Source: Dastarcus helophoroides
Lineage: Eukaryota; Arthropoda; Insecta; Coleoptera; Bothrideridae
Assembly (NCBI GenBank): GCA_028583605.1
Contig: CM053326.1
Span: 35,744,931-35,808,930, forward strand
Direction of reading: 5' to 3'
DNA length: 64,000 bases
The position numbers were made by a program, and so were the translations under genes. Shown in pieces: positions 942-53,990 of this stretch. How positions within the stretch are numbered: position 1 is the first letter of the stretch; the number at the start of each line of letters is the position of its first letter. The notes beneath the pieces are model-generated. The model was not told where the DNA came from. It saw only the letters and a program-made list of their open reading frames with translations, and made no database searches.

Positions 942-2160
942 ACAACGTTCCACTGGCGACCTACTGGCATATGTTACCCATATCTGTACCTCAGCTATGG
1001 AAAAACATGGTGAGGCTAGGATTGTGGCATTGGATATCTCAAAGGCTTTCGACAGAGTCTGGCACCGATCTCTTCTCGCCAAATTAACATCTTATGGTCT
1101 TCCTCCTGGACTCTGTCATTTGATATCCAATTTTCTCGCTGACAGATCTCTTCAGGTCGTCGTCGATGACATTTGCGATTAACGCAGGGGTGCCTCAGGG
1201 GCCTGTTCTGTCTCCTACTCTATTTTTATTACAGATAAACGATCTCTTAGCTTCCAATCCTATATACAGCTACGCAGATGAGAGTAACCTTGTGTCATAT
1301 TTTTTCTCCGAGAAACCATAATCTATCGCTGCTTCAGATCGACTAAGGGAACAGCAGATACAGACGATTAATCGGGATCTCGAGATTATTCTGGAATGGG
1401 GTAAAAACAATTTGGTCGACTTCAACGCTTCAAAAACTCAGGCTGCCGTATTCTCTAAGAAAACATCAAGGGATGGTGCAACAAACATACTAATGGACGG
1501 TAAAATCCTTTCGATGGGATCTAATCTATCTATCCTAGGAGTGAATGCGAGCACTAACTTCTTTCGGGACGATCATGTGGGCGCCATTGCCAAATCCGCC
1601 TCTCAGAAACTAGGCTTTCTTTTTAGAGCTAAAAAGTACTTCACACCTCATCAGCTATTAACACTATACAAAGCTCAAGCTAGGCCAACACTAGAATACT
1701 GTTCTCATGTTTGGAGTTCAGCCCAAAACACACTTTAGCTCTTTTGGATTCATTCAAAGAGCGTAATTGATGACGGGAGTCTGACCGATTCCCTTGAAAC
1801 ACTAGAGCACCGGCGTATGGTTCGTGACTTGTCTCTTTTCTACGGGTACTATAATGGAAGATGCTCGCAGGAACTAATAGGATTGATCCCTCCAAGGGCA
1901 AGATTCTTGAGGCGTACTAGACAGTCGGAGACAGCAAATTCCTGTGCGGTCCAGCTTGACACAGTGAAGACTTCTGTCTATGGAGACTCTTTTTTCTATA
2001 GAACTTCCAAGTTATGGAACTTGTTACCGAAGAAATTTTCCCCAAAAATTACAACCTATCCTTGTTTAAGAAGGCTGTTCATCGCCATCTATCCTTGTTT
2101 CCGCATCCTACTCGCAGTGCTTTAAAAGCATAATGGGGTTACCTTTTGCGAGTGGATTAA
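942..2160 (+). pseudogene. Broken non-LTR retrotransposon, RT domain to 3' end (copy 1)
   Basis: This is the reverse-transcriptase part of a jockey/CR1-like non-LTR retroelement. Frame fragments give an RT block (ALDISKAFDRVWH, LTSYGLPPGLCHLISNF), the turn GVPQGPVLSP, the catalytic box and the conserved C-terminal tail (SLFYGYYNGRCSQEL, IPPRARFLRRTRQ, FFYRTSKLWNLLP). The catalytic YADD is YADE here (1271-1282), so the enzyme would be dead. A 14-nt deletion near 1168, seen by comparison with the minus-strand copy at 46.6-47.9 kb, shifts the frame, and further frame changes follow. The 3' end stops at GAGTGGATTAA as in the sister copies but lacks their poly-A. Homology with the sister copy begins near the word CGTTCCACTGGCGA. 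Anything 5' of that (818-941) is uncertain. The exact clade is not resolved. Confidence 0.85.
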
Positions 2161-11924: not shown

Positions 11925-12190
11925 TATGGCACACATACTGAGTTACCGTGCTTTTCTGTATTATTGTTGGCATTCATTCGCCATCTCTTTTTCTACCACT
12001 TATATTTAGAAACACTCTTCTGGTATGGTTGACATACTGAGTTATCATACTCCTCTTTTTTGGTGTTTCTTTGGTCCTAAAGAGGCCGCTACGATGGCGG
12101 GCAGGTCAAACACTTATAACTGTTCCTTAATACGATCCAATTTTCTGAAGAAGTTACAGCTTTTACTGACTGGGCGTAGAAGCATTCTTA
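11925..12190 (+). repeat. Diverged copy of the 24.5-kb repeat (ACATACTGAGTTACCGTGC family)
   Basis: The segments CACATACTGAGTTACCGTGC, TGACATACTGAGTTATCAT, GCTACGATGGCGGGC, AAACACTTATAACTGTTCC and ACTGGGCGTAGAAGC follow in the same order as their counterparts at 24,480-24,795. The segment that is CTGAAGA ... GAAAC at 24.68 kb has decayed here to CTAAAGA ... CAGGTC. Dispersed repeat of unknown class, without coding capacity. Confidence 0.65.
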
Positions 12191-13137
12191 TTTTTTTATG
12201 GTAAATTTATTGTTAAATAGAGTTTATAATACTCTAAGAACAGCATAATCTATTTTATTTCCATGTTTTATGCGTTAAAAAACATCATCAAAGTCTCAAA
12301 TTTACTGCAAGAAATGTGGCATTGAACAAAATAAGACATTTTACATCACACGTAGTTTCGTTTAATGATGCCATATATAAAGTAAAAAGTTGCCTAGAAC
12401 TCTATCAAACGGCGAGTATCTGCAACATTAAGTTGTAACGCGTTCCGGGACTACTAATTTTACCATCTAAGATCTGAGATTCGATGGTGCGGACTGGCAA
12501 TATAATCAGATTTCAGTGAAGTTACACTGACTGCATTTTTATGCAGCACCGCGTGAAGAAATTCAATTATTAAGCCAAGAAACTGGTTTGCAATAAATTC
12601 GGAGTGGCCCATTGGGCACAGCGGTCGTCAGCATATTTTACACTTTTACTACCGTATTGCAGCGTATGTGCTATATTGTTTATTGAATAGCTTTTCCTCA
12701 TCTTATTCCTTAAATTATATGGCTATACTTTTATGGATCTCTGACAAAAACATACCACAAGCTCTTTTCTGATAATCGAAGTTTATGTGTCTTGTACACA
12801 GCTTATGTGGGCGCAGTAAAATCTCAAGCTGAGCGAATGCCAGCTAATAAACTGACCGAACTAACCCAATCGAAAAAACTGACGACTACCAGTTAATAGT
12901 ATGTTGAATAAAAAAAACATCGAGGGTAACGCTGCATATTTTATGTTTTCTTTTTTTATATATTTTTACATGTCTATCCAAGTTAATTTTACTTGGACAA
13001 CTTTAGTAACGAAATTACATTTTACTTCTAAAAAAGTTAGCAAAAAAATACTTTTTGTGCAACCGTTGACAAAAGGTGACATTTTTATATCGCTACACAC
13101 TGCCCAAGACTTTCCATTTTTACCGTTAAAAATATAT
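12191..13137. other. Intergenic sequence, nothing recognised
   Basis: A 90-codon ORF at 12901-13173 (+) is rich in Phe, Ile and Lys, overlaps the LTR remnant at its end and has no support. No repeat recurrence was seen. Confidence 0.35.
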
Positions 13138-13201
13138 TGTAGCGAAATGCAAATTATAGAATTTAGTACGTAAGAAAATTTTCTAGAAAGATCTGATAAG
13201 T
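13138..13201 (+). repeat. 5' LTR remnant
   Basis: The first 64 bp match 14522-14585 almost base for base (TGTAGCGAAATG, ATAGAATTTAGTACG, AAAATTTTCTAGAAAGAT), then similarity stops abruptly. This marks the left edge of the internal deletion, which has also removed the primer-binding site. Confidence 0.85.
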
Positions 13202-13298
13202 AAGTAAACAAGAGAAGAGGAACTCACTAGCTAATGTCAAGAAATCAGTCGTCAAAACTCTTCCCATCAAACAGATAAAAAGGACCAAGGGGAGTTTG

Positions 13299-14450
13299 AT
13301 GGTGGAAGCCAGCGTGGATGGAAGGAATATATTTGCAGGCAACGGTAGACACAGGAGTCAAGGTTACTGTGGCACGCGATATTCAAGCAATCCGTGACCG
13401 ACCCAGACCCAAAGATAAACAGGAGTTGAGGAAGTTCCTTGGGTTATGCACCTATTACAGAAGATTTGTGAAAGGTTTCGCCATCATCGCTGCACCGTTA
13501 CACCGACTAACTGAAGGAAGAATGCCTTATGTCTGGACTTCCGATTGTGATACCGCTTTCCGAAAACTTGAAGTTCCGCCTTGTGCATAAGCCCTATCTT
13601 GGCGTATCCTCAGCAGAATGGAAAATTCGTGTTAGACACAGACGCCAGCAACGTTGGCATTGGGGCTGTGCTGTCTCAAGTTCAAGGCGGTGAAGTACAT
13701 CCTGGTGGCCATGGATTATGTACAGTAAATGGCCTGAAGCTTACGCCATCTCGAACCAGGAAACTACCACGGTCGCAAGGGTTCTTGTGGACAACTTCAT
13801 CTGTCGATTTGGTGTTCCCTTGGAAATACACTCGGACCAAGGAAGGAATCTCGAATCGGGGGTCTTTCAAGAGGTGTGCCGTCTTCAAAGAAAACTCGAA
13901 CGACACCTCTTCATCCACAGTCGAAAGGAATTGTGGAAAGATTTAACAGGACCTTGGAGGAACATCTTCGAAGGTCGTTTCTAAGCATCAGACAGACTGG
14001 GACGACATCTACCACTGTTTCTAATGGCCTATCGCGCAGGCAACTCATGAAACAACAGGTCAGACTCCGGCAAAAGTGATCTTCGGGAGGGAACTGCGGC
14101 TTCCACCTGACTTGCTGTTTGGATCACCAAGGGAGACACCAAGGGAGACACCCAAGGAGACGTTGGGTTTCGTAGATGAGTTGAGGGAAGCGATATTGGA
14201 GACGCATGCCCTGTTGCGGACGAAGATTAACTTGGCGACGGACCGGATGAAGACAAGATATGACGTGAATGCCAACCATGGTGGTTTCAGTGAGGGCGAA
14301 TTGGTATGGCTATACAACCCTCAGCGAAGGAAAGGAGTTTCGCCGAAGTTTACGCCATCCTTGGGACAAAGTGCTGAAGAGGATCAACGACTTGGTATAC
14401 AGGATCCCAGCGTAGCCCCAGGAGTAAGATGAAAGTGGTACACCTGAACA
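13299..14450 (+). pseudogene. Collapsed Ty3/gypsy pol (protease, RT end, RNase H start, integrase)
   Basis: Frame fragments in order: a protease start (MVEASVDGR, then the active-site triad DTG near 13348) joined almost directly to the RT connection region (RDRPRPKDKQELRKFLGL, CTYYRRFVKGFA); the start of RNase H (LDTDASNVGIGAVLSQ, with the first catalytic Asp); then an abrupt jump to the integrase core (KWPEAYAISNQ, HSDQGRNLES, PLHPQSKGIVERFNRTLEE with the catalytic Glu) and the integrase C-terminal part (DRMKTRYDVNAN, LVWLYNPQRRKG). The catalytic half of RT with its YxDD box, most of RNase H and the integrase zinc finger are absent. Several frameshifts separate the pieces. It is a fossil with no function of its own. 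Confidence 0.88.
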
Positions 14451-30110: not shown

Positions 30111-31058
30111 ATGTTTATTAATTTTATTTAACATTTTTGCGACCCAGTTTGAAAATATTGAAATTTTTATTGTTTGTTAACAATATTCTAAAACAGTTTT
30201 TGAAATATGAAAAAATAGTACATTATACTACAAGGGAGAGAAATGCGTTATTTTGACAGAGGTGCAATTTGAAGCCCGAGGGCTACAATTTTTTTGTACT
30301 ACAAAGCAGGAAAATGTAGTTCGCAGCCAGTTGGCAAGAATACCATGGGAAAAATTCCGAGTGTAGTAGCTTCGTATTTAAAATTACCTGATGCTGCATG
30401 TTATACTGGTCACTGCTTACGAAGATCTTCAGCGACATTACTGGCAGATGCTGGTATGGATATCACTACCATAAAGCGTCATGCTGGTTGGAAATTAACG
30501 ACAGTCGCTGAGGGTTATGTCGAGAACTCCATTGAAAATAAGACCAAAATTGCTAATCAGGTTTTAGTAGGTACCACTACTAGCGCAATCACAAAAACTG
30601 TAAATGTAAGCGAAAGTAATATTCCTTCTAATATTAATTTTGAAAATTCTACAAATGTAACATTTAATTTAAATGTCAATAAATAATTTCAATGTTATCT
30701 TTTTTTTTTGCATGAAAAACGTTCTCCATAATGTAAACTACCTTGAGAGCATTATACTCCCTTCGGAATAATCGACTACTTCTGTTTTAATTTTGATGTC
30801 ATAGAAACTGATTTCTTCTCCCGACCGTGGAAAAACAAATTTTTGTCATATCTAATTTTGGTCTTCTATTTTTCATTTTTTTCCTCTTCTATGTAAAATA
30901 AACTAACCTATTTTTTGTCAACTGTCATGAGGTGACGTTTTAAATAAATTTAGATATGACGTAGTCGTATTTCAAAAACTGTTTTAAAATACCGTCAACA
31001 ATAAAAATAAAAATCTTTCCAACTGGGTCGCAGAAATGTTAACTAAATTTAATAAATA
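30111..31058 (+). mobile_element. TIR-bounded element carrying a tyrosine recombinase fragment
   Basis: The left arm (about 30111-30210) and the reversed right arm (about 30958-31058) share TTAACATTTNTGCGACCCAG, TTTTTATTGTT and TAAAACAGTTTTTGAAATA. The arms are ~85-95 bp with a few gaps. They enclose the recombinase C-terminal reading frame (30294-30686) and about 270 bp of sequence without a gene. Inverted termini around a tyrosine recombinase are known in DIRS-type retroelements, whereas Crypton DNA transposons usually lack them (established). Which this is remains open. Confidence 0.7.
30285..30686 (+). pseudogene. Tyrosine recombinase, C-terminal catalytic half
   Basis: Frame from about 30285 to TAA at 30686, with no ATG at its start. 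It opens with YYKAGKCSSQPVGKN and IPSVVASYLKL, and continues with the conserved catalytic segment GHCLRRSSATLLADAG (H-x2-R), TTIKRHAGW (H-x-G-W) and the nucleophile region VAEGYVENS. So His, Arg, His/Trp and Tyr of the recombinase active site are present in order. The tail is Asn-, Thr- and Val-rich (NIPSNINFENST). The N-terminal domain and first catalytic Arg are missing, so this is a 5'-truncated copy although what remains is open and well preserved. Recombinases of this class cut and rejoin DNA during transposition of Crypton- or DIRS-like elements. Confidence 0.8.
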
Positions 31059-39666: not shown

Positions 39667-41392
39667 ATGAGTGGAAAGGGCGCTGCTGGTAGAATTACCA
39701 AAAATATTAAAAAAGACTATCAGCTTGGAGACAAAATGAGACATTATGCGACGATTTGATAAGGGAGAGAAGGCTGTGGAGATAGCAAAGGCTGTTGGTC
39801 TGGCTGCAACAACTGTCAGAACTATAAGAGATCGAGATGGGAATAAAATAAGAGAGGCTGCAAAATCTGCAACATCATTAGATGCTAAGACGATAACCCA
39901 TACAAGAAGTGCTTTGATGATGAAAATTGAGTCCTTGCTTTCTATTTGGATTGAAAATCAAGTTGCGCAGAGAATACCATTAGTAAAATGATAATTCAGA
40001 CGAAAGCAAAAAGCTTATTTGACGACATAAAAAGTAAAGCAGTATCCAACGATAATGCTAGTGGTAGTAATACAGACAAGAATGAAACATTTGAAGCTGG
40101 TCAGGGCTGGTTTGATAAATTCAAGGTTCGAGCAAATCTGCACAGCATTGCTTTTAAAGGCGAAGCAGCTAGCGTTGATTTAGCTGCTGCAGAACGCTAC
40201 CCGACAGAGTTAAAAGCATTAATTCATGAAAGTGGCTATGATCCGAAACAAGTCTTTAATGTTGACGAGACTGGGTTATTTTGGAAACGTCTACCTAACA
40301 GAACTTTCATATCTAAAACAGAAAAATCTGCGCCAGGATTTAAAGCTATCAAGGATAGACTGACTCTTCTTCTTGGTGGTAATGCAAATGGTGATTTCAA
40401 ATTTAAACCATTTATCATTTATCAATCAGAAAATCCAAGAGCTATGAAAGGTTGTTCAAAGAATCTGCTTTCTGTCCACTGGCGAGCAAACCAAAAAAGC
40501 ATGAATGACAACATCACTATTTCAAAACTGGGTTTCAACTTGTGCTATTCCAGAAATTAAAGCTTATTGCAACAAGGAAAACTTAAACTCCAAGGCTTTG
40601 GTCCTAGTAGACAATGCTCCTGGCCACCCAGTTTATGTTGATGAGTTGTCAGAAAACGTGAAATTTGTATTTTTGCCGCCTAATACGACACCAGTTATTC
40701 AGCCGATGGATCAGGGAGTAATATCGACTTTTAAAAGTTGTTACCTTCGACTAACATTTAAACTTCTTTTAAGTGAGACAAGATAAACCTACCATGCTAG
40801 AGTTTTGAAAAAAGTTCAACATTATGAAAGCCATAGAAATTATTTCCGATTCTTGGGAGGAGATTAAACCATCTTGCATAAATGGTGTTTGGCGTAAAAT
40901 ATGGCCTGAATGTGTTCACCGAATTTGCACTGCAGAAGTTGATGGTACACCAGCTGTTCGTCATGACATTTCTAATTTAGCTAGAGAGTCTAATTTTGAA
41001 GGTATGGAGAAGACTGACATAAATGAATTGCGAACCTCGCACAACCAAGAATTCTCTAATGAAGAGCCATTGCAATTGGAATTGCAATTTGCTAATCAAG
41101 ACGATGACAGTGACCGTACAATAGAAATCTCCGAGGAACAAAATTTAACCTCCAAACAAATTTCCAAAGCGATGTGTTTGATTGACGAAGCTATAGAGAT
41201 TTTTTTAAAAAACGATCCTGACAGCGGAAAGAGTTTTGAAGTGTCCCAGGCGGTAGCTACGAATATCAATTGTTACAAGGAAATTTATTTTACGTTGAAA
41301 AAAAAGCTGTTCAGCAAACATTGGACCAATTTTTTGTGAAACAAAGTCGACTTACGACAACAGCCACTATGGACTTATCAGACAGTGATTAA
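39667..41392 (+). pseudogene. Frameshifted Tigger-like transposase (HTH, CENP-B-type domain, DDE)
   Basis: The ATG at 39667 starts MSGKGAAGRITKNIKKD; after a frame change comes the Psq-type helix-turn-helix (MRRFDKGEKAVEIAKAVGL, TTVRTIRDR; 39746-39991). A second frame (39988-40560) holds the end of the CENP-B-type DNA-binding domain (GWFDKFKVRANLHSIAFKGE) and the first catalytic Asp (FNVDETGLFW). A third (40505-40786) holds the second Asp (ALVLVDNAPGH) and the third Asp region (PPNTTPVIQPMDQGVI). A fourth (40824-41339) holds the C-terminal part (SWEEIKPSCINGVWRK, WPECVHRI). A last frame change gives LDQFFVKQSRLTT and a stop at 41392. All three catalytic Asp codons survive, and only a few indels break the gene. 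Transposase of this type cuts out and pastes its own element. Confidence 0.9.
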
Positions 41393-43752: not shown

Positions 43753-45172
43753 TTGTCCATCAACAAAAATCCGATAAGCAAAAATACACGGTGATTTAAA
43801 AATGTCTCCCGATATTTTTAGGATGAATAGAACATCAAAAAATAAGGTCCCTTTTTTCTATAATTTATTTTTCCAAAAGTGAATAATAAAGGAGTTATAA
43901 GTCCTGAAAGAGGGGTGAATAAAATGTTGTTTGTTTTTTTTGGAAAATTTTCTGGATCCTTAAGGTATCAAAATAATATTTTAAACCCAGATATAAGGTT
44001 CCTAATTACACATTTACAACATATCTGTCAAATCCTTTCTCCTTTATAAGGAGACAGTTTGAGGGGTTATCTTTTAGTATTTTATCCTTATTTTTAATTA
44101 TTTAAAAATTCATTAAATTATTATAAATTATAATAAATTATTTATTTAAAATTTGCGAAGAACCTTTTTTGTGCCAAATAATGTAAATATCTTCTTCACA
44201 CATTTTCACGAAATGTCTAAAAATCTGAAAATGTAATTATTTCGAACGTCCCCTAATTCTTTTTAGTGAGTTGATTGCAGACAAAGGTGCCCCTACATTT
44301 TAACAAAATAAACCCTTTTTTCGTATAATGAGAAATAATCTTTTTAAAAGGCAAGGCTTAGGTCGTTTTTAATGTTACGGTTAGTTGCCCATTATTAAAA
44401 AAAATCGACAACAACTGTATATTAGGAATGCAAAATGACTTCACTTGGGTGTTTATAATCATTAAAAACCAAGGAAAAGCGATTCACGGAAGAGGACAAA
44501 GGAAGCCGCTCGGCATTCAGGCCGCCGAAATCGCCGATAAACGTTAGCACTTTTACGATAATTGCAATTTAGGTCTCATTACTTGATTATTTGTATTGAG
44601 GGGGAAATCCATTACTCGAGCATCTTGATTAAGATATAAATCATCACTTGGCGGGGGCTGCAGCATTCCGAAGCTCACTTGATCGTATAAAGTAAATTAA
44701 AATTCTCCATTAAAATGCAGGCTGCATATATTTCCAACTAGCACCGTCAAGGCGCTGTTAATGTCTCTATATACTCTAGGATTATATTTATCGGTGACAG
44801 ATAATTAATAAAGGTGTACTATTAAAATATCAAAGCCTTTCTAATTTGAAATAGGATTTATTATTGGTAGTAAAGATATTTTTCCGTCATCATCACGAAT
44901 TAAGTTTAAATGTTTTGTAATAATTTGTTGCATAATTTACGTCTGCACCGCAAGTTAGTCAGAAAAAATGCTGACAGTTCAGTAGTTCTTTGTACACACA
45001 CGAGATTATTATTATTATGTCTATGACAAAATACGAAAATTGGCAGTTATGCAAAATTGATGTTTTGTGAACAGTAGTATTAAATGACAATAAGAATCAT
45101 TTATTTCAGTTAACATATTCAAAACCTTCACAAAATTTCGGTATTCAAAACTCGACCTCAACCATCAACAAT
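43753..45172. other. Upstream region of the first cluster gene
   Basis: No other gene seen. A possible 3' splice site, TCATTTATTTCAG, ends at 45110, 62 bp before the ATG of the 306-aa gene, so this gene may have an upstream non-coding exon somewhere here. A GC-richer patch lies at 44465-44540 (AAGCCGCTCGGCATTCAGGC). Confidence 0.4.
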
Positions 45173-46093
45173 ATGAGCTCCAATTCCATTTGCCTTCATG
45201 AAATAATCAATGACGTAAACACAGTAATATATGGAGATCTTTCGGAGCAATCGACGGAACACAAAAATATACCACGTCAGGGCGAACATTTTCATAAAAT
45301 AATAACTCCTGGAAAGATCGATGACAAATCAAATTACGGAATTCCAAAAAATATAAAATATCCACCTCATTACATACCAAGTTATGATACTGAACGATCA
45401 GATCACGAAAATGTCGAATATGATTACGACGAAGAAGATGAAGATGGTTATCACGTTGATGAATCTGAAGACCAAGAAGATGTATGTCCTTGTTGCAGGA
45501 ACCACGGCGAATCTCCTAAAGAAAGTAAAACTTTATATGATGATGACGCTGAATACGAGAAAAAACGAGAAAAACCTGGGACATGGTATCAAAAGAACGA
45601 AGAGTTTCATCCTGAAATGCATGATCGATATGATACGGCTACAGACCACCGTACCGGAATCACATCCGAATGGCTCAAAAGTTGTAAAAATAGTTTAAAG
45701 GAATTTCTAAATCCCATTAAATGCAAATATAGCAACGCGTATAACAATGCCGCTGATCAGTTTTGTGAAAAACGTCGTAAGACTTTTACCATGAATGGAA
45801 AGTCAAAAGCGGAAAAGGATCATGGTTCCTATGAACAAGGAAAAGATCAACAAAAGTGCAACGTTAGTAATCCGCATTCTAATGAGTCTGATAAATTTGG
45901 ACAGACTGGTAATCTAACAAGCGTTCCGTTAAGTGCTCGTAGAATCAAAACCCAAAAGGAGAAGCTGCTTTTATACATGACGGATCCAAATTTATTCATT
46001 CCCGGGATCAGGATATTACATAAGCGACTTTTAAAATCGGAGGATTCACCTGATCGAATAGCTAGATTAAGAGATATTCTGAGTCAAACATAG
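45173..46093 (+). CDS. Unknown protein of the four-gene cluster, member 1 (306 aa)
   Basis: Not a family I recognise. Single open exon from ATG to TAG, with AATAAA at 46099-46104. Residues ~81-103 are strongly acidic (DYDEEDEDGYHVDESEDQED), followed at 105-108 by CPCC, a possible metal-binding pair. The middle is hydrophilic and Cys- and Lys-containing (EWLKSCKNSLKEFL, NPIKCKYSNAY). The C-terminus (262-296) matches the box shared by the cluster: EK-L3-Y-M, DPNLFIPG, LLKSEDSPDRI. It is the most diverged member: the F-x2-F-N N-terminal box and the NPF/DPF tripeptides are not evident. No signal peptide or membrane span, so probably cytoplasmic or nuclear (inference). The membership call rests mainly on the C-terminal box. 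Confidence 0.82.
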   Translation: MSSNSICLHEIINDVNTVIYGDLSEQSTEHKNIPRQGEHFHKIITPGKIDDKSNYGIPKNIKYPPHYIPSYDTERSDHENVEYDYDEEDEDGYHVDESEDQEDVCPCCRNHGESPKESKTLYDDDAEYEKKREKPGTWYQKNEEFHPEMHDRYDTATDHRTGITSEWLKSCKNSLKEFLNPIKCKYSNAYNNAADQFCEKRRKTFTMNGKSKAEKDHGSYEQGKDQQKCNVSNPHSNESDKFGQTGNLTSVPLSARRIKTQKEKLLLYMTDPNLFIPGIRILHKRLLKSEDSPDRIARLRDILSQT

Positions 46094-46631
46094 AAAAGAA
46101 TAAAAAATATTCATCCACCACAGCCTTATTCCTACTTACATGAGTTCAAATGCCATATAGGAAATATAGGGATACTTATTTATCTGCAAAAAACCAACAA
46201 CTGTGCCTGCTGGGTTGAATTTTTTATTTGCAAGTACAGTCAGAGGCTTCTTATTTGCTGTTTCATTCGCGATTTGTTCATTCCCAGAGCCACCACTTTC
46301 TACATGGTTTTTGGGTCGGAATGTCGCTAATATTAGAAAAAGATAAAAAAATATCTATGAGGGAATATGCTATTAAAAATTCAAATTTTCTTATGCTTCA
46401 AGTGAATTGTAGACCTTTAAGACAGCCTATAATTTGTTCCATGAAAAGCTCTTCTAGATAATTTAATAATCCTCTTTAATTTGACTGGTTTCCAAACAAA
46501 TAACTAGGGCCTAAAAGGAATGCTTTGCAGTTTTCAACAGCCTACTCGAAATTCCTTTACGATCATTATTTCCCGAGTTATTGATTACCAAAATCAAAAA
46601 TGACTCTTGCAGTTGTAGTTTCAATTTGACT
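46094..46631. other. Spacer after member 1
   Basis: Apart from the polyadenylation signal at 46099-46104 I see only an unsupported 77-codon frame (46228-46461, no ATG). Confidence 0.35.
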
Positions 46632-47895
46632 TTTTTTTTAAGTTTAATCCACTCGCAAAGGGTAACCCCATTATGCTTTGAAAGCACTGCGAGTAGGATG
46701 CGGAAACAAGGATAGATGGCGATGAACCGCCTTCTAAAAGAAGGATAGGTGGTAATTTTTGGGGAAACTTCCTTTCAGTAGCAAGTTCCATAACTTGGAA
46801 GTTCTATAGAAAAAAGTGTCTCCGTAGACAGAAGTCCTCACTGTGTCAAGCTGGACCACACAGGAATTTGCTGTCTCCGGCTGTCTAGTACGCCTCAAGA
46901 ATCTTGCCCTTGGGGGGATCAATCCTATTAGTTCCTGCGACCAGCTTCCATGATAGTGCTTGTAGAAAAGAGACAAGTCGCCAACCATACGCCTGTGCTT
47001 TACTGTTTCGAGAGAATCGGTCATACTCTCGTCATCAATTAGGCGAATCGCTCTTCTTTGAATTGAATCCAAGAGAGCTAAAGTGTGTTTTGGGGCTGAA
47101 CCCCAAACATGAGAACACTATTCTAGTATTGGCCTAACTTGAGCTTTGTAGTGTTAATAGCTGATGAGATGTGAAGTACTTTTTAGCTCTAAAAAGAAAG
47201 CCTAGCTTCTGAAAGGCGGATTTGGCAATGGCACGCACATGATCGTCCCAAGAGAAGTTAGTGCTCGCATTCACTCCTAGGATAGATAGATTAGATCCCA
47301 TCGGAAGGATTTTACGGTCCATTAGTATGTTGTTGCATGGTCCCTTGATGTTTTCTTAGAGAAAATCGCGGCCTGAGTTTTCGATGCGTTGAAGTCGACC
47401 AAATTGTTCTTACCACATTCCAGAATAATCTCGAGATCCCGACTAATCATTTGTATCTGCTGTTCCCTTAGTTGATCTGAAGCAGCGGTAGATAATGGTT
47501 TGTCGGAGAAAAAAGATGACACAAGGTTACTATCATCCGCGTAGCTGTATATAGGATTGGAAGTTGAAGCTAAGAGATTGTTTATGTGTAACAGAAATAG
47601 AGTAGGAGACAGAACAGACCCCAGAGGCACCCCTGCGTTAATCGCAAATGTCTCGGATGAGATGCCATCGACGACGACCTGGAGAGATCTATCAGCGAGA
47701 AAATTGGATATCAAATGACAGAGTCCAGGAGGAAAGCCATAAGATGTTAATTTTGCGAGAAGAGATCGGTGCCAGACTTTGTCGAAAGCCTTTGAGATAT
47801 TCAATGCCACAATCCTAGCCTCACCATGTTTTTCCATAGCTGAGTTACAGATATGATTAACATATGGCAGCAGATCGCCAGTGGAACGTATTTTT
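46632..47895 (-). pseudogene. Non-LTR retrotransposon inserted in the gene cluster (copy 4)
   Basis: Same family as copy 1. The minus strand begins near CGTTCCACTGGCGAT and gives RT from EARIVALNISKAFDKVWH through NAGVPLGSVLSP to SYADDSNLVSSFF, so the catalytic YADD is intact (47532-47543), but PQG has become PLG. Frame breaks near 47325 and 47140 separate the later parts (ILGVNASTNFSWDDHV; RRAIRLIDDESM; SLFYKHYHGSWSQEL). The 3' end is GAGTGGATTAAACTTAAAAA. 5'-truncated. It lies between cluster members 1 and 2 and points away from member 2. Confidence 0.88.
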
Positions 47896-47974
47896 ATTTT
47901 GCTCTATAAGCATTCTTCTTTGAGTAAGAGGCTGCTTACAAAGTTGGATTTTTTATATTTCTTGTGCCTGCTAT

Positions 47975-48875
47975 ATGTAGAAGAGACTGGAGTATTCTGG
48001 ACCACGGGGAATTGCAGACCAGCTTTATATTTTTTTCTCTAATAGTGGTTGATAGCTACAAATTATTGTCGTCAGCTCGCCTCATGTTAAGCCCATTTTC
48101 CCTTCAGTACTCGACTTGTGTACACGAAGCGTACCTGGCTTCGATACCAAATAGAAATGGGATACTTCGATTTTTTTTTTTCACTTTAGAATTTCCTCTA
48201 ATTTGACCTTACTTTTCGAGAACCAACTCAGGTAAATCTCTCCATAATATTCGCGGAACCTTAAGTCTTCGACAGGAACATGAAGTTTTGCATGAAGTTT
48301 GTATTATGTTACTCATATGCTGCCATATTGTAAAAACGACCTTCGGGGAATTACGGACCACTTTTGTCGAGGAATAATGGATCATTCAATTCTTTACATT
48401 TCAGAAGCTAATATGTATTTGATGCATATAAGTGATTATTCATGCAAATTTTCAACACAGCATTATTTTTCGACAATTTCTAATAGTTTTTTGGTAAAAT
48501 AATAATTTCGTTTCGAACTGATTTTCATTGCCATTTGTCACTCCACTTTACTTTGTTTCTCTTTCATAATAAATCTTCTGCCATACTGAATCAAAAACAA
48601 GAAGGTTTTTCTACAACATTTTTCCATTTTTAATCGATTTACAAAGTGGTCCGTAATTCCCCGACATTTTTCAAAACCGCAAAAATTGCCAACTGTTATA
48701 AGTTGTATAATTTAATACAACTTGACCAAACTTCTGCGACCTAAAGAGAGATTAGTAGTTGTACTACAAGTTCAAGCTTTGAAATTTTCAGAAAAAAATA
48801 TTTTTTTGCCAGTTTTTAATTAACTTAAAAAGGTGGTCCACAATACCCCAGTCTTCCCTATTTAAAAACGTGTGA
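47975..48875. mobile_element. Fold-back element with nested GGAATTNCGGACCAC inverted motifs
   Basis: The left end has GACTGGAGTATTCTGGACCA and CGGGGAATTGCAGACCAG. About 350 bp further is CGGGGAATTACGGACCACTT. The reverse complements follow: AAGTGGTCCGTAATTCCCCG at about 48647 and GGTGGTCCACAATACCCCAG at about 48831. The outer pair and the inner pair are each inverted, so the element folds back on itself. No coding capacity; class unknown. It ends about 100 bp from the stop of member 2. Confidence 0.65.
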
Positions 48876-48978
48876 AATCTATTCCTTAAGAAAAATATTT
48901 TAGTAACACAATTCATGTATTTAACTTCCAAATATCAAAAAACACATCAAAAAGTAACACCGTATTCAATACACACGT

Positions 48979-50136
48979 TTAGAAGTCATCCATGAGTCGC
49001 TTACAAGCACTATAAACAGTATTTTTAAAGAACATTAACCTCTCCGGTGATTTTTCCGCTTTTTTGAGTCCATCGAAAACAACATGATTTCCCGGAATAA
49101 TTTTCTCTGGATGATTCACAAAGTACCTCAAGTAATGCTTCTCCGTGGACAATTTGTGTTCCTGCTTCAGGAACTCCCCATCGCCGTCAACCGAAACATC
49201 TTGATCGGGGTTCAAATAATAACTTTTAAACCGTTCAATGCTGACCTTGCCTTCATGTGGAATATCTTCGTTTTTGTACGTAAAAATATCTCTGTTGGGG
49301 TATTCCTGTAATGATCTGGTGCCATCCAAACCGAAAGGGGTGTAGAAGACGTTTTCTTCTGGTGATCTTTTCTTCTGCCGTTCGAACATATTCACCTTGT
49401 CGTCTAAAAATACTTCAGGTCTGAAATCTCTAAATGGCGTATTTAGTTGAAGTTCTGGAGCTCTATCCATTGGGGTGGGACTCATTTTGCTGGATTCGGT
49501 CGGAGTAACGGAAGCGACCTCATATTTATCCTCGACATTTGATAGCAGAGAGACTCTTTTAGTTTTGGAATCGTTTTCTTCGCTACATTCTTTGTTAGTA
49601 TTTTCATCATTATCGAATGGACTCTCAAATAAGTTCGATTTCTTCTTATTAATCAAAGAGGTCGTCGTTTTAAGGTTTACCTCTAACGGAGCGCATTCAA
49701 ATGGGTCAAGACTTTTCGCTTCTTCTCGTTGTGGTTTTATTTTTTTCTTCTTGTCAAGCATTTTGACCAGCATAGCGTGTTGTTTTATCGACTCGTAAAC
49801 ATACTTTCTGCGAATTCTGTCTCTAATGATAACAGTTTTCAAATCTTCTAATTCATTGCGTTCTCTTTCTTGAAACTGAAATGGATTCCACTGACTTGAT
49901 TCACTATCATATTTGATTAGGTTAACTTCTCTTGGTTTCTTTTTTCGGCTGTTAAGAAGATGCTTAGGGCAATAGTGCTGGGACTCGATTTGTGACTTGT
50001 GGGGCAATCGTTGGATCACATTGGAATAATTTTTAGCTGAAGGCCGGTCAAAGGTGGTGAACTGTATTTGATTAAATCTGGTAAAAAGACTTTCATCCAA
50101 TTTAAAGCGAGACGATATTTGCTTAACGTCTGGCAT
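48979..50136 (-). CDS. Unknown protein of the four-gene cluster, member 2 (385 aa)
   Basis: Not recognised. Intronless, ATG to stop. N-terminal box at 8-25 (SSRFKLDESLFTRFNQI). A WNPF at 83-86 leads into a charged helix-like stretch (QERERNELEDLK, RDRIRRKYVYESI; to 117). Then come DPFE at 144-147, KKSNLFESPF at 165-174 and a long hydrophilic middle with several TP/SP dipeptides (TPTESSKMSPTPMDR), possible phosphorylation sites. The C-terminal box at 331-385: EK-HYLRYFVNHPEKIIPG, VVFDGLKKA, KSPERL, then a short helix ending KRLMDDF. By hand count 31 of the last 55 residues equal member 3. Proteins with NPF tripeptides can bind EH domains (established), but that role is unproven here. Its start is 1,033 bp from the start of member 3, head to head, so the two may share a promoter region. 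Confidence 0.88.
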   Translation of the reverse strand: MPDVKQISSRFKLDESLFTRFNQIQFTTFDRPSAKNYSNVIQRLPHKSQIESQHYCPKHLLNSRKKKPREVNLIKYDSESSQWNPFQFQERERNELEDLKTVIIRDRIRRKYVYESIKQHAMLVKMLDKKKKIKPQREEAKSLDPFECAPLEVNLKTTTSLINKKKSNLFESPFDNDENTNKECSEENDSKTKRVSLLSNVEDKYEVASVTPTESSKMSPTPMDRAPELQLNTPFRDFRPEVFLDDKVNMFERQKKRSPEENVFYTPFGLDGTRSLQEYPNRDIFTYKNEDIPHEGKVSIERFKSYYLNPDQDVSVDGDGEFLKQEHKLSTEKHYLRYFVNHPEKIIPGNHVVFDGLKKAEKSPERLMFFKNTVYSACKRLMDDF

Positions 50137-51169
50137 ATTTTTGAGAGCGCGATTTGCAAGACTTAAACGAAACGGATAATTTTAAATAAAATTTTGATGG
50201 CTTACTGTCATAATTTTCATGTCAATATAACCTACAAGAAATTTAATGTTCGAATAGCGATATTTTTATATAGCTGTGATCCTTCGCCTAGCAATTTTCA
50301 AATCAAACTTGGAGGCAGATCATCCCACCTTCACTAATTCTGTTTTTTTTTAATCTAGCCCCCCTTCAGCCTTGTCATTTTTTAGTATTTATCCGAAACT
50401 GAGCTCCTGCGTAAGACATAAAATAACGTAAATTTTAACCAGATAGCTAAGCCTGTCGGGCATGGAATTGAAGCTCAGTTTTAGTGGTTAATACGACATC
50501 TTAACCATATCTTTTCTGAAGTTTAGTGGTCTTAGAATCTTAATTTGCAGCACAAATCATTTAAATTAACAGGAAAATGAAAACTGTGCTCCGCAATTAA
50601 AAAAAAGCTGTTTGATATATTGAATGACAAATGGGTTCATTTAAGCCAACGTCGAAAGTCGAAGTTTTATTATTTTTTGTCCTCAAAATTGATTGAGCGA
50701 TAATTTACGCACTATCTACATCGTTGATAAAACATCGACAAATATCTATTGTCCGCAGTGTAATTCGCTGGAATTATTCAAAATTCATGAGTAAGTTGGA
50801 TATCTAACGGAATACGAATAAGCTTCCAATCTTAATAAAAAAAAATACAAGGCATTTATCATATCGAACTGGTAGCGTGTAAGAATACAAAGAGAAGTGA
50901 ATTTTCGAATTTCGAAAATATATGTATATATGTACAAGTATACTTAAAACAAAAAAAAAACTACAGGTGATCAAAGAGTTTTAAAGCATTACTTTTCGTC
51001 GGTAACCAAATCAACTATATAAAAATTAATCAAAATCCAGTATGTCGATATAGTGCTTACGGTGTCAAGATGATCGATTAGTTTTGGTTAGAAAACATTT
51101 GACGTAAGTTTGAAATTTTTATAAACTACTCTTGTCAAAATTCTTAGTACAATTCAAAACTACCATACC
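50137..51169. promoter_or_regulatory. Shared head-to-head upstream region of members 2 and 3
   Basis: The two start codons diverge from this 1,033-bp stretch, which has no other supported gene. Just upstream of each ATG are splice-like words: ACAGTAAGCC then TTTCGTTTAAG before member 2, GACGTAAGT then AAAATTCTTAG before member 3. The implied introns would be only ~40-60 nt, so I do not call them. No clear TATA box was picked out. Confidence 0.45.
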
Positions 51170-52336
51170 ATGGAAAATTTGGGGCAAATATCTTCCCAAA
51201 TCAAATTAAATGAAGACTTCTTTGCTCAGTTTAACGAAATCAAGCTAGGCGATGTGAAATCTTCTAACGACAATTATGCCAGTTTGTACCCAATTAGAAG
51301 ACACACAACTTCAGTCTTAAAAATTCCGCTGAATCCGATCAACCTTATTAATTCAAATACCAATATAGCTACACCTCAAACGGTAAAATGTGATTCACGG
51401 AAGGAATGGAACCCCTTTGAAATTAGTGAGAAAGAAAAGCAAAAGCTTGCTGATTTTAAATTTGCAGTTAAGCAGGATAAACTTCGAAGAAAATACATAT
51501 ACGAATCAATTACGAAAAATGATGTCATTGTAAAAATTAGCAATTTGTCAAAAGAACATACAAATAAAGAAATAAAAGATCCTTTCGAAGGCGAAATTCC
51601 TAAAGCAAATCTAAAGAGCTCAACACCAATGATTAGTCAGAAACGATCGAATATATTTGAAAACCCTTATGAAGCAAAAGAACAAAATAAGATTACGAAG
51701 CAAGCACCTGATGTAAAAGTTCAAAAAAATATTCCCATTAACAAACACAAAGCGAAACCTCCACCAATGCCAAGAGAATACGATCCGGATGATAAATACG
51801 CCCCACCAAGAGGTACCGCCAGGTACTTAAAATATTACAAAGCACATCCCTTTACAATTACAGATAGAAAATCTGATAATCACATGGAAATGTCGCATGG
51901 AGATCACTCTTCAAATTGTGACTTGCATGCCGAATACACTAAACCCCAAAGGGGAAAGTCTTCAAAGCCAAATAACTTTAACCATTCCTCGCCATACTTT
52001 TCCAAGTACCAAGATATCGATAGTAATTTTTATGCTAACAGGAGGTTTCTTCGCACGAAAAATGCCACAGGTGGTATTAAGGAGTTCAAAGATCACTTCT
52101 TAAATGATAACGTCAAGGATAAAATCATAGGTGAAACGGATTTACTCAAAAAGGAACATAAGTTGGCACAGGAGAAATACTATTTAAAATACTTTGTCAA
52201 CCATCCGGAAAAAATCATACCAGGGACCAATATCGTTTTCAGTGGCCTTAAGGAAGCTCCTCAATCACCGGAACGAATAGTTTATGTTGTAGACCAAATA
52301 TACCGTGGATTTAAGCGTTTTATGGATGAGTGTTAG
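51170..52336 (+). CDS. Unknown protein of the four-gene cluster, member 3 (388 aa)
   Basis: Not recognised. Intronless; the ATG sits in a favourable CATACCATGG context. N-terminal box at 8-24 (SSQIKLNEDFFAQFNEI). WNPF at 80-83 is followed by the charged segment SEKEKQKLADFK and KLRRKYIYESI (to 114). KDPFEGE lies at 137-143 and KRSNIFENPYE at 158-168, aligned with member 2. A Pro-rich KPPPMPREY and DPDDKYAPPRG (196-215) precede ARYLKYYKAHPFTI (217-230), which looks like a second, weaker copy of the C-terminal YLKYFVNHPEKI motif. The C-terminal box at 334-388: EKYYLKYFVNHPEKIIPG, IVFSGLKEA, QSPERI, ending FKRFMDEC. No signal peptide or membrane span. The function is unknown; the shape (short conserved boxes in a disordered, charged chain) suggests a binding or scaffold protein (inference). 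Confidence 0.88.
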   Translation: MENLGQISSQIKLNEDFFAQFNEIKLGDVKSSNDNYASLYPIRRHTTSVLKIPLNPINLINSNTNIATPQTVKCDSRKEWNPFEISEKEKQKLADFKFAVKQDKLRRKYIYESITKNDVIVKISNLSKEHTNKEIKDPFEGEIPKANLKSSTPMISQKRSNIFENPYEAKEQNKITKQAPDVKVQKNIPINKHKAKPPPMPREYDPDDKYAPPRGTARYLKYYKAHPFTITDRKSDNHMEMSHGDHSSNCDLHAEYTKPQRGKSSKPNNFNHSSPYFSKYQDIDSNFYANRRFLRTKNATGGIKEFKDHFLNDNVKDKIIGETDLLKKEHKLAQEKYYLKYFVNHPEKIIPGTNIVFSGLKEAPQSPERIVYVVDQIYRGFKRFMDEC

Positions 52337-52712
52337 GAAGATTCGTTATATGTAGCAGCAATGTAAAATGTGTACAATTAAATTGCAATAGGAAATTCTA
52401 AAACATTTATTAAAGTTGTAATTCATGAAGTCTTTTAATTCAGAATCATTCGAATTAGATAGGTGGTAGTTGAGTTGCGCTTTCCAGTTGACGAAAAGTT
52501 TTAAGTTAATCCAAAATTTTCTTTTTGGTTAACCAAAAATGGAAACTAAAATTATGCATGTGAAACATTCTGTGGTATGAGGTCTGTCAAGTGTGACATT
52601 AAAAGAATGTTGTCTTCAAAATTTTTGCACTTAATCATGTAGCTACCCCTCGAAAACCGCTCTCAAAGGTATTGTCTGTAGATCAATCTAGCACATCTTC
52701 CTCCTGAAATCA
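52337..52712. other. Spacer between members 3 and 4
   Basis: 376 bp without another gene. No repeat seen. It presumably holds the 3'UTR of member 3 and the promoter of member 4. Confidence 0.4.
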
Positions 52713-53990
52713 ATGAAAGAAATGCCCAAAAAATCCCGAAGATCCTATGACAAAGAATTTAACGAGAAATCATTCAGTAAGTTTAACAAAGTGGTCATCA
52801 ATAGAGCCTTATACCCTTTTGGAAAGGAATTCGTGATAAACATACCAATTGAGAATGTTCGAAAAGAGCAAACAAGGAGCTGCAAAGAAATTGGATTGGA
52901 CGAGGTGAGCGCGGAAGAATACTGCAATAGCACACAAGAGACAGATGCCTTCTGGAATGGATCGAGTGAGTTAATATTTCAGCACCATCTTTCGTCGAAA
53001 CTAAATGAACTAAAAGGTAGGGTACGTGATGGTGTCGAATCCAGTTCTTTCACTAAAGTAGAAGAAACTTTTGATTGTCCACCGCCGCCAAAAACGAACA
53101 CGTTTCTACAGTTGCTTAACCAACAGAAATCTAGTGGAGGAAGAAATCCCTTCGATGGGGAGAGTAGTTACTTTGCCGAAACAAAGCAGAAACCTTTCGA
53201 AAATATTTTTAAGGTAACTTCAGTTTATATTTCTTCAGTAGTTGCGTAAAATTCTTAGTCATAAAATTAGGGGCTAAGTTTTTTACGAAATATTCTTCCA
53301 ATTTATAGCCCTGTCATCTGGTATTGAGCTGTGTGCAATGAAATTAAATAAAATTTGGTCTTTTCTTTGCAAAAATATCATCACTATTATAGACATAATT
53401 CATTTAATTCTGAGCCACAGCAATAACAAAATATTTATTTTAAGCATCGCCGACGGCAAACAATTGATGCATTGAAATACCAGCAAGAGGAAAAATTGCA
53501 AGAAATCTATATTGAAAAAGAACCACCGGAAGACAATTACTGTCCCCCGAAGCATACAGAGAAACGTTCCCACATGTACAAAAAGCAAGTTTTGACAAAA
53601 ATATACACAGAACCGGCGGAAAACGTTAATACGTTCTCCGAAGCATACAGTAGCAGCAGTAGCAGTGAAGATGAAGATGGGGATCAGGGACACCGACATT
53701 ACAAGGCGGCCCGTGAAAAGAAAGTTCCACAAAAAAAGTCTTTTTTACTGAAAAGTCATTACATAAATACCAACTTAAAGAGTCCATCGGATTACGCTTA
53801 TGCGAAGCACAAGAACGTACTTAACATCAATAAGCAGTATATAAACTATGTCTTGGAAAGTAATAAGGATGCCACCCCTGGAACAAGCCTCTTAAGCAAC
53901 AAATTTAAAGCGGCTGCAGTAAAACCAGACAGATGGAGATTTTTCGGAGATAAAATTATAAATGCGCTCAAGAAGATGAAATCGGAATGA
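52713..53990 (+). CDS. Unknown protein of the four-gene cluster, member 4 (two exons, ~348 aa)
   Basis: Not recognised. I read two exons: 52713-53213 and 53445-53990, with donor TTTAAG|GTAACT and acceptor TATTTATTTTAAG|CATCGC. The intron is 231 bp and both sides are phase 0, so the frame continues exactly (FENIFK then HRRRQTIDALKYQQEEK). N-terminal box at 11-28 (SYDKEFNEKSFSKFNKVV). FWNG at 80-83 stands where WNPF is in members 2 and 3. NPFDGE at 145-150 and KPFENIF at 160-166 are present. The second exon has a PPEDNYCPPKH segment like DPDDKYAPPRG of member 3, a Ser/acidic run (SSSSSEDEDGD) and a C-terminal box that keeps KQYINY, PGTSLL, KPDR and a final helix (INALKKMKSE) but is much diverged. 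AATAAA follows at 54021-54026. Without the intron the first exon would stop 12 codons after the donor, and the second would lack a start. Splicing is therefore the better model. Confidence 0.78.

Follow-up and report, generated by a model that had tools for sequence, protein, structure and literature searches.

A tandem gene family of the beetle Dastarcus helophoroides ending in a probable, apparently undescribed heme-less offshoot of cytochrome c

Introduction

In a 64-kb stretch of the genome of the beetle Dastarcus helophoroides (contig CM053326.1 of assembly GCA_028583605.1, forward strand, positions 35,744,931 to 35,808,930; hereafter the window, whose own numbering is used below), four neighbouring genes encode proteins that end in a common C-terminal box, which raises the question of what this box is and from where it came. 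A first-pass annotation of the window had regarded the genes, referred to here as members 1 to 4, as a local, diverged and duplicated family and had placed the box outside any known family. Here we describe that the box resembles the C-terminal half of cytochrome c. This resemblance, the loss of the heme motifs and the local clustering of the genes are established, and the family is apparently an undescribed, heme-less and fast-evolving offshoot of cytochrome c, in which a piece of that protein is probably reused for another job. Cytochrome c is the textbook case of a near-invariant electron carrier, and the family would show that even such a protein can seed new genes. Our whole-genome searches cover the complete assembly of 538.9 Mb in 50 contigs.

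The C-terminal box matches the C-terminal half of cytochrome c

We searched the members and their box profile against the 177,635 distinct sequences of the Protein Data Bank (PDB), using phmmer for the single members. A profile built from all four boxes finds the cytochrome c 9msz as its best match (E 1.5e-5), and the best 60 of its 92 matches are all cytochrome c. Cytochrome c also comes first for member 3 alone (E 0.016; best 60 of 78 matches all cytochrome c), for member 1 alone (E 0.034; 24 of 24 matches) and for member 2 alone (E 0.095; 59 among the best 60 of 63 matches, the other being a pentatricopeptide repeat protein), while a profile that spans members 2 and 3 over their full length reaches it at E 0.0098 (best 60 of 76 matches all cytochrome c). 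The evidence lies in this convergence of separate members on cytochrome c, together with the gain brought by the combined profile.

The reverse comparison leads to the same protein. When the 2071 open reading frames (ORFs) of the window are scored with a hidden Markov model (HMM) built from five eukaryotic cytochromes c, the four members take the top four places (E 1e-4, 3e-4, 5e-3 and 3.5), and among 8645 ORFs in 264 kb the sole matches of this HMM at E<=5 are members 3, 2 and 1. Profile alignment with hhalign relates the four-box profile to cytochrome c at P 1.4e-7 and member 1 alone at P 7e-5. Shuffled sequences never reached the true cytochrome c scores, neither for member 1 (0/2000) nor for members 2 and 3 (0/5000 each). 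The box can thus no longer be treated as an unidentified motif, given that cytochrome c emerges from the searches of both the PDB and the genome; the first-pass annotation had itself named a match to a well-known ubiquitous family as evidence against its proposal, and cytochrome c largely provides that match, although Pfam gives none.

At the level of single residues, cytochrome c positions 57-102, comprising the 60s helix, the Met80 loop ('NPKKYIPGTKM') and the C-terminal helix, fit all four boxes without a gap. The corresponding segments lie at 45944-46081 (+) in member 1 (IKTQKEKLLLYMTDPNLFIPGIRILHKRLLKSEDSPDRIARLRDIL), at 49015-49152 (-) in member 2 and 52163-52300 (+) in member 3, both with the motif HPEKIIPG, and at 53820-53957 (+) in member 4, whose box is the most diverged. 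Scored ungapped over these 46 positions, they are the top four of 43,253 peptide windows of that length in 264 kb, in the order member 2 (64.3), member 3 (63.7), member 1 (55.6) and member 4 (18.0); the next window scores 10.6, and the mean is -44.6 with a standard deviation of 13.2. Identity to the canonical cytochrome c gene of the beetle amounts, in a by-eye count, to about 30, 28, 33 and 20% for members 1 to 4. Pro76-Gly77 is retained in all four boxes and Pro71 in three, and positions 57, 64, 68 and 85 are hydrophobic throughout (Ile/Leu57, Leu/Ile64, Leu/Phe85). Members 2 and 3 additionally carry Phe82-x-Gly84-Leu85-Lys86, of which Lys86 is present in member 4 as well.

The heme-holding features are absent

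Cytochrome c holds its heme by Trp59, Met80 and the CXXCH motif. Met80 is replaced in all four boxes, by Ile, Val, Ile and Leu in members 1 to 4, respectively, Trp59 is likewise lost from all of them, and CXXCH occurs in none of the four proteins. When 14,578 short ORFs in 264 kb are searched with a separate HMM of the N-terminal half of cytochrome c, the best match has E 2.5, and none of these ORFs contains CxxCH[TS]; an upstream exon with the heme half was thus not found in 264 kb. Within the members themselves, the N-half HMM does not exceed shuffled sequences in any case (for member 1, 767/3000 shuffles are as good), and the ungapped scores of the cytochrome c blocks 10-25, 26-40 and 41-56 are negative for every member. 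The family differs from mitochondrial cytochrome c (class I, in the beetle the gene on contig C7), which it resembles in the ungapped segment 57-102 and in Pro76-Gly77, by lacking CXXCH, Trp59, Met80 and a detectable N-terminal half, and by presenting the segment as the tail of proteins of 306-388 residues.

Members 1-3 retain an aromatic residue at position 67 and have a His near the loop, which might indicate that non-covalent heme binding persists in the domain and serves a redox or heme-sensing role. With every one of the three heme-holding features missing from all four members and the N-terminal half not found, we regard this alternative as very improbable. The loss of the heme features likewise argues against electron transfer between complexes III and IV, so that the proteins would not be electron carriers.

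Relatedness among the four members

A profile of the boxes of members 1-3 recovers member 4 at E 7e-5 among the 2071 window ORFs, where the next match has E 1.4; among the 8645 ORFs in 264 kb the next match has E 0.95. The four neighbouring genes with a common C-terminal box are thus present as the annotation had placed them. Its statement that the remainder of the proteins is hardly alignable applies to member 1 and mostly to member 4, but not to members 2 and 3, which align end to end with 32-34% identity (E 7e-55). Member 4 scores 34.0 bits against the profile of members 2 and 3, a value reached by 0/2000 shuffles, and its exon 2 finds member 2 (E 0.014) and member 3 (E 0.2) as next-best matches to itself in the whole genome; its exon 1 matches the same profile weakly (8.3 bits, E 0.5 among the ORFs in 264 kb). 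Member 1 has only the box in common with the others, its N-terminal part being unlike members 2-4. Against the profile of members 2 and 3 it scores a weak 10.3 bits, which 1/2000 shuffles reach, whereas it scores higher against the cytochrome c HMM (14.2 bits, 0/2000 shuffles). Descent of the C-terminal half from cytochrome c is consequently supported directly for members 1-3, and for member 4 solely via members 2 and 3.

In a FastTree phylogeny of the 46-position segment the four boxes group together with a support of 0.94. They have Pro92 and Arg94 in common, both absent from the seven cytochromes c compared, and as judged from these residues the four boxes likely descend from a single founding event.

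Weighing descent against an independent motif

Several observations weigh against the derivation from cytochrome c. The PDB E-values of single members are modest (0.016-0.095 for members 1-3), and since the PDB is rich in near-identical cytochromes c, the numbers of matching entries do not constitute independent evidence. Pfam gives no match for the box, the Cytochrom_C family (PF00034) being reached neither at E<=1 nor at E<=10, although our own five-sequence eukaryotic HMM does match members 1-3. Exon 2 of member 4, searched alone against the PDB, returns only polyhedrin (13/13 matches, best E 0.074) and no cytochrome c; 28/2000 shuffles score as high as member 4 does against cytochrome c, and hhalign gives P 0.086 for member 4 alone, with pairwise shuffle p values of 0.018-0.356. 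Structure prediction adds further reservations. AlphaFold2 models of the last 112 residues of member 3 and of the box are of low confidence (mean predicted local distance difference test, pLDDT, 54.7 and 68.6, respectively), a helix is set at the Met80 loop, which is not helical in cytochrome c, and Foldseek finds no cytochrome c among the fold matches of either low-confidence model. The helices of both models follow mostly the cytochrome c order, and as predictions of this quality they neither support nor contradict the cytochrome c reading.

Weak single-sequence matches, the silence of Pfam, the missing fold match and the failure of member 4 alone to match cytochrome c could be taken together to mean that the box is a new, independent motif, whose likeness to the Met80 loop arose by chance or by convergence on a Pro-Gly turn between helices. 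We consider this improbable. Member 1 and members 2/3, which have little in common outside the box, each match cytochrome c first in the PDB, the combined profile does so far more strongly than any single member, the correspondence runs ungapped over 46 positions with the core hydrophobic positions retained, and the shuffled sequences of members 1-3 never attain the cytochrome c scores. On balance, these comparisons make descent of the box from cytochrome c very probable.

Host cytochromes c and the route of origin

Searching the whole genome with an insect-type cytochrome c, we obtained four matches. Two of them are the exons of the canonical gene, another is an intronless paralogue, and the box of member 3 ranks fourth at E 0.6. 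The canonical gene on C7 (L030) has its intron within the Gly56 codon, as read by eye, so that its exon 2 encodes residue 57 to the end, which corresponds to the segment found in the family and invites exon capture as its origin. The paralogue (C1:61749785-61750093; L029) is a full-length, divergent cytochrome c with 59% identity to the insect type, has CXXCH and Met80 intact and is possibly a tissue-specific isoform. It resembles member 1 in DP-x2-FIPG and in a SAED/SED stretch, and differs from the family in keeping CXXCH and Met80 and in having, with 103-104 residues, the ordinary length of a cytochrome c.

Exon capture is suggested by the coincidence of the exon with the segment. In its full form, in which exon 2 would have been captured by an unrelated gene and the Met80 loop together with the C-terminal helix would have become a heme-independent interaction module of a lineage-restricted, expanding family, we put it forward tentatively. 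No member carries an intron at the junction equivalent to Gly56. A start of the cytochrome c segment at exactly residue 57 was considered and is not claimed, as the maximal ungapped matching segments begin at cytochrome c residues 61, 67, 64 and 48 in members 1 to 4; the exon boundary is compatible with these starts but not resolved by them.

The tail might alternatively go back to a complete cytochrome c gene, such as one related to the C1 paralogue, with the heme half lost or diverged beyond recognition, an alternative that concerns the route and not the descent from cytochrome c. Such an intronless full-length gene exists in the genome and, in the short-segment FastTree phylogeny, branches closest to the four boxes, albeit with weak support (0.58), and the PDB alignment of member 1 begins as early as cytochrome c residue 30. 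One alignment furthermore places upstream residues of member 1 against the CXXCH half; we do not claim a decayed CXXCH half on this ground, since shuffled sequences do equally well. The N-half HMM and the negative ungapped blocks described above stand against this route, as does Phe82, which members 2 and 3 keep in common with the canonical gene, the paralogue having Val at this position. We regard the whole-gene route as a plausible but uncertain option. Pairwise scores do not decide between the C7 gene and the C1 paralogue as the parent.

A proposed heme-independent binding tail

Taken as a whole, we favour with reasonable confidence the interpretation that a descendant of cytochrome c has taken on a new use as a binding tail independent of heme. 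A copy of the cytochrome c C-terminal half (about residues 57-102), now diverged, would have been joined behind long and presumably disordered N-terminal chains, and the joined gene would then have multiplied at one locus. The heme chemistry is gone while the turn and core positions are kept, which suggests selection for a folded tail or for one whose helices form upon binding. The tail could accordingly serve as a small helical binding module, perhaps through the same surface that cytochrome c presents to its partners, and NPF/DPF-type peptides in the N-terminal chains of members 2 and 3 might recruit other proteins. NPF and DPF are motifs of EH-domain and AP-2 binding. Tripeptides of the pattern [NDST]PF, which was picked after the sequences had been seen, are enriched in member 2 (5; 0/5000 shuffles), the enrichment in member 3 is marginal (2; p 0.04), and a shuffle test reveals no enrichment in members 1 or 4. 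According to the first-pass annotation, members 2, 3 and 4 have the order of their NPF/DPF tripeptides in common. For NPF, DPF and [SN]P[FY] this is true of members 2 and 3, but member 4 contains a single NPF and lacks DPF. The F-x2-F-N box that it had reported is visible in all three.

The setting would most likely be testis or germline, where young duplicates that lack introns and evolve fast are often active. Duplicated cytochromes c have specialised in some lineages, and Drosophila cyt-c-d and mouse testis cytochrome c have roles in testis; these are full heme proteins, unlike the four members described here. The 'testis-specific' cytochrome c 2aiu is among the PDB matches of member 3 and of the four-box profile. 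The joint proposal of a binding module acting in the germline is speculative and, in our judgement, rather unlikely to hold in both its parts. The family would also separate what heme maintains in the cytochrome c sequence from what folding or the binding of partners maintains. As an orphan motif missed by Pfam is now explained in this manner, comparable orphan families of other animals may have arisen likewise. In the open-licence literature of PubMed Central we found no publication on the motif or on a heme-less cytochrome c.

Genomic range and evolution

The local character of the family, as first annotated, is borne out by whole-genome searches with member 3, which return itself, member 2 and one chance match, and with exon 2 of member 4, for which members 2 and 3 and a single weak match appear besides the query. 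Member 1 finds itself and a broken copy on contig C9. The sensitivity of these searches is bounded by the fact that the member 3 query misses members 1 and 4 and that member 1 is not linked to the others; no further intact copy was detected in the genome with the single-sequence queries (members 1, 3 and exon 2 of member 4), which may miss distant members. Collections of viral and bacterial/archaeal contigs contained 0 relatives when scanned with patterns taken from the N-terminal region rather than from the box.

The copy on C9 (C9:11308380-11312147; L037-L040) is partial, covers the N-terminal region of member 1, contains stops and consists of two pieces with about 3 kb between them. It is about 87% identical at the DNA level to window positions 45072-45421 and 45437-45666.

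All four genes have intact reading frames. Members 1 to 3 are intronless, as annotated, with uninterrupted coding sequences at 45173-46093 (+; 306 residues, acidic with an isoelectric point, pI, of 5.7) for member 1, at 48979-50136 (-; 385 residues, pI 8.8) for member 2 and at 51170-52336 (+; 388 residues, pI 9.4) for member 3. Member 4 (52713-53990, +) is predicted from splice signals to consist of exon 1 (52713-53213), which contains its F-x2-F-N box and NPF, a 231-bp GT...AG intron (53214-53444) with the GT donor at 53214, and exon 2 (53445-53990); the predicted splice preserves the frame and gives 348 residues with zero internal stops.

Between members 2 and 3 the rate of nonsynonymous substitution (dN) is 0.255 in the last 62 columns, which represent the box, and 0.737 elsewhere; the NG86 method gave no synonymous rate (dS), which we read as saturation. 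The about three-fold lower dN implies that the box is more constrained than the rest. The broken copy of member 1, with its stops, could suggest that the genes as such are functionless, either as pseudogenes in decay or as open frames that arose fortuitously. This is highly unlikely in view of three uninterrupted frames of 306-388 codons and a spliced one, as well as of the constraint on the box. Member 1 is moreover open where its C9 copy is broken, and the differences between the two fall on codon positions 1, 2 and 3 in the numbers 14, 9 and 22, a weak excess at position 3.

Probable transposon remnants in the window

Rfam yields 0 matches at the gathering score. We scanned 144 of the 173 window ORFs of at least 62 residues with Pfam, and the 11 families found are mostly transposon domains, the assignment of ORFs to families being our own reading; the same applies to the elements named below. 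Probable fragments of non-LTR (long terminal repeat) retrotransposons with reverse transcriptase are located at 1322-2122 (+) and at 46514-47903 (-), the latter between members 1 and 2, and part of the stretch at 46.5-47.0 kb has dozens of copies genome-wide. The stretch at 12000-14430 (+) is probably what remains of a Ty3/gypsy-like retroelement, with pieces of RNase H and integrase, and a probable Tc5/CENP-B-like DDE transposase remnant occupies 39955-41336 (+). At 30273-30683 (+) lies a tyrosine-recombinase-like frame, probably the one matching Phage_integrase, that is perhaps Crypton-like.

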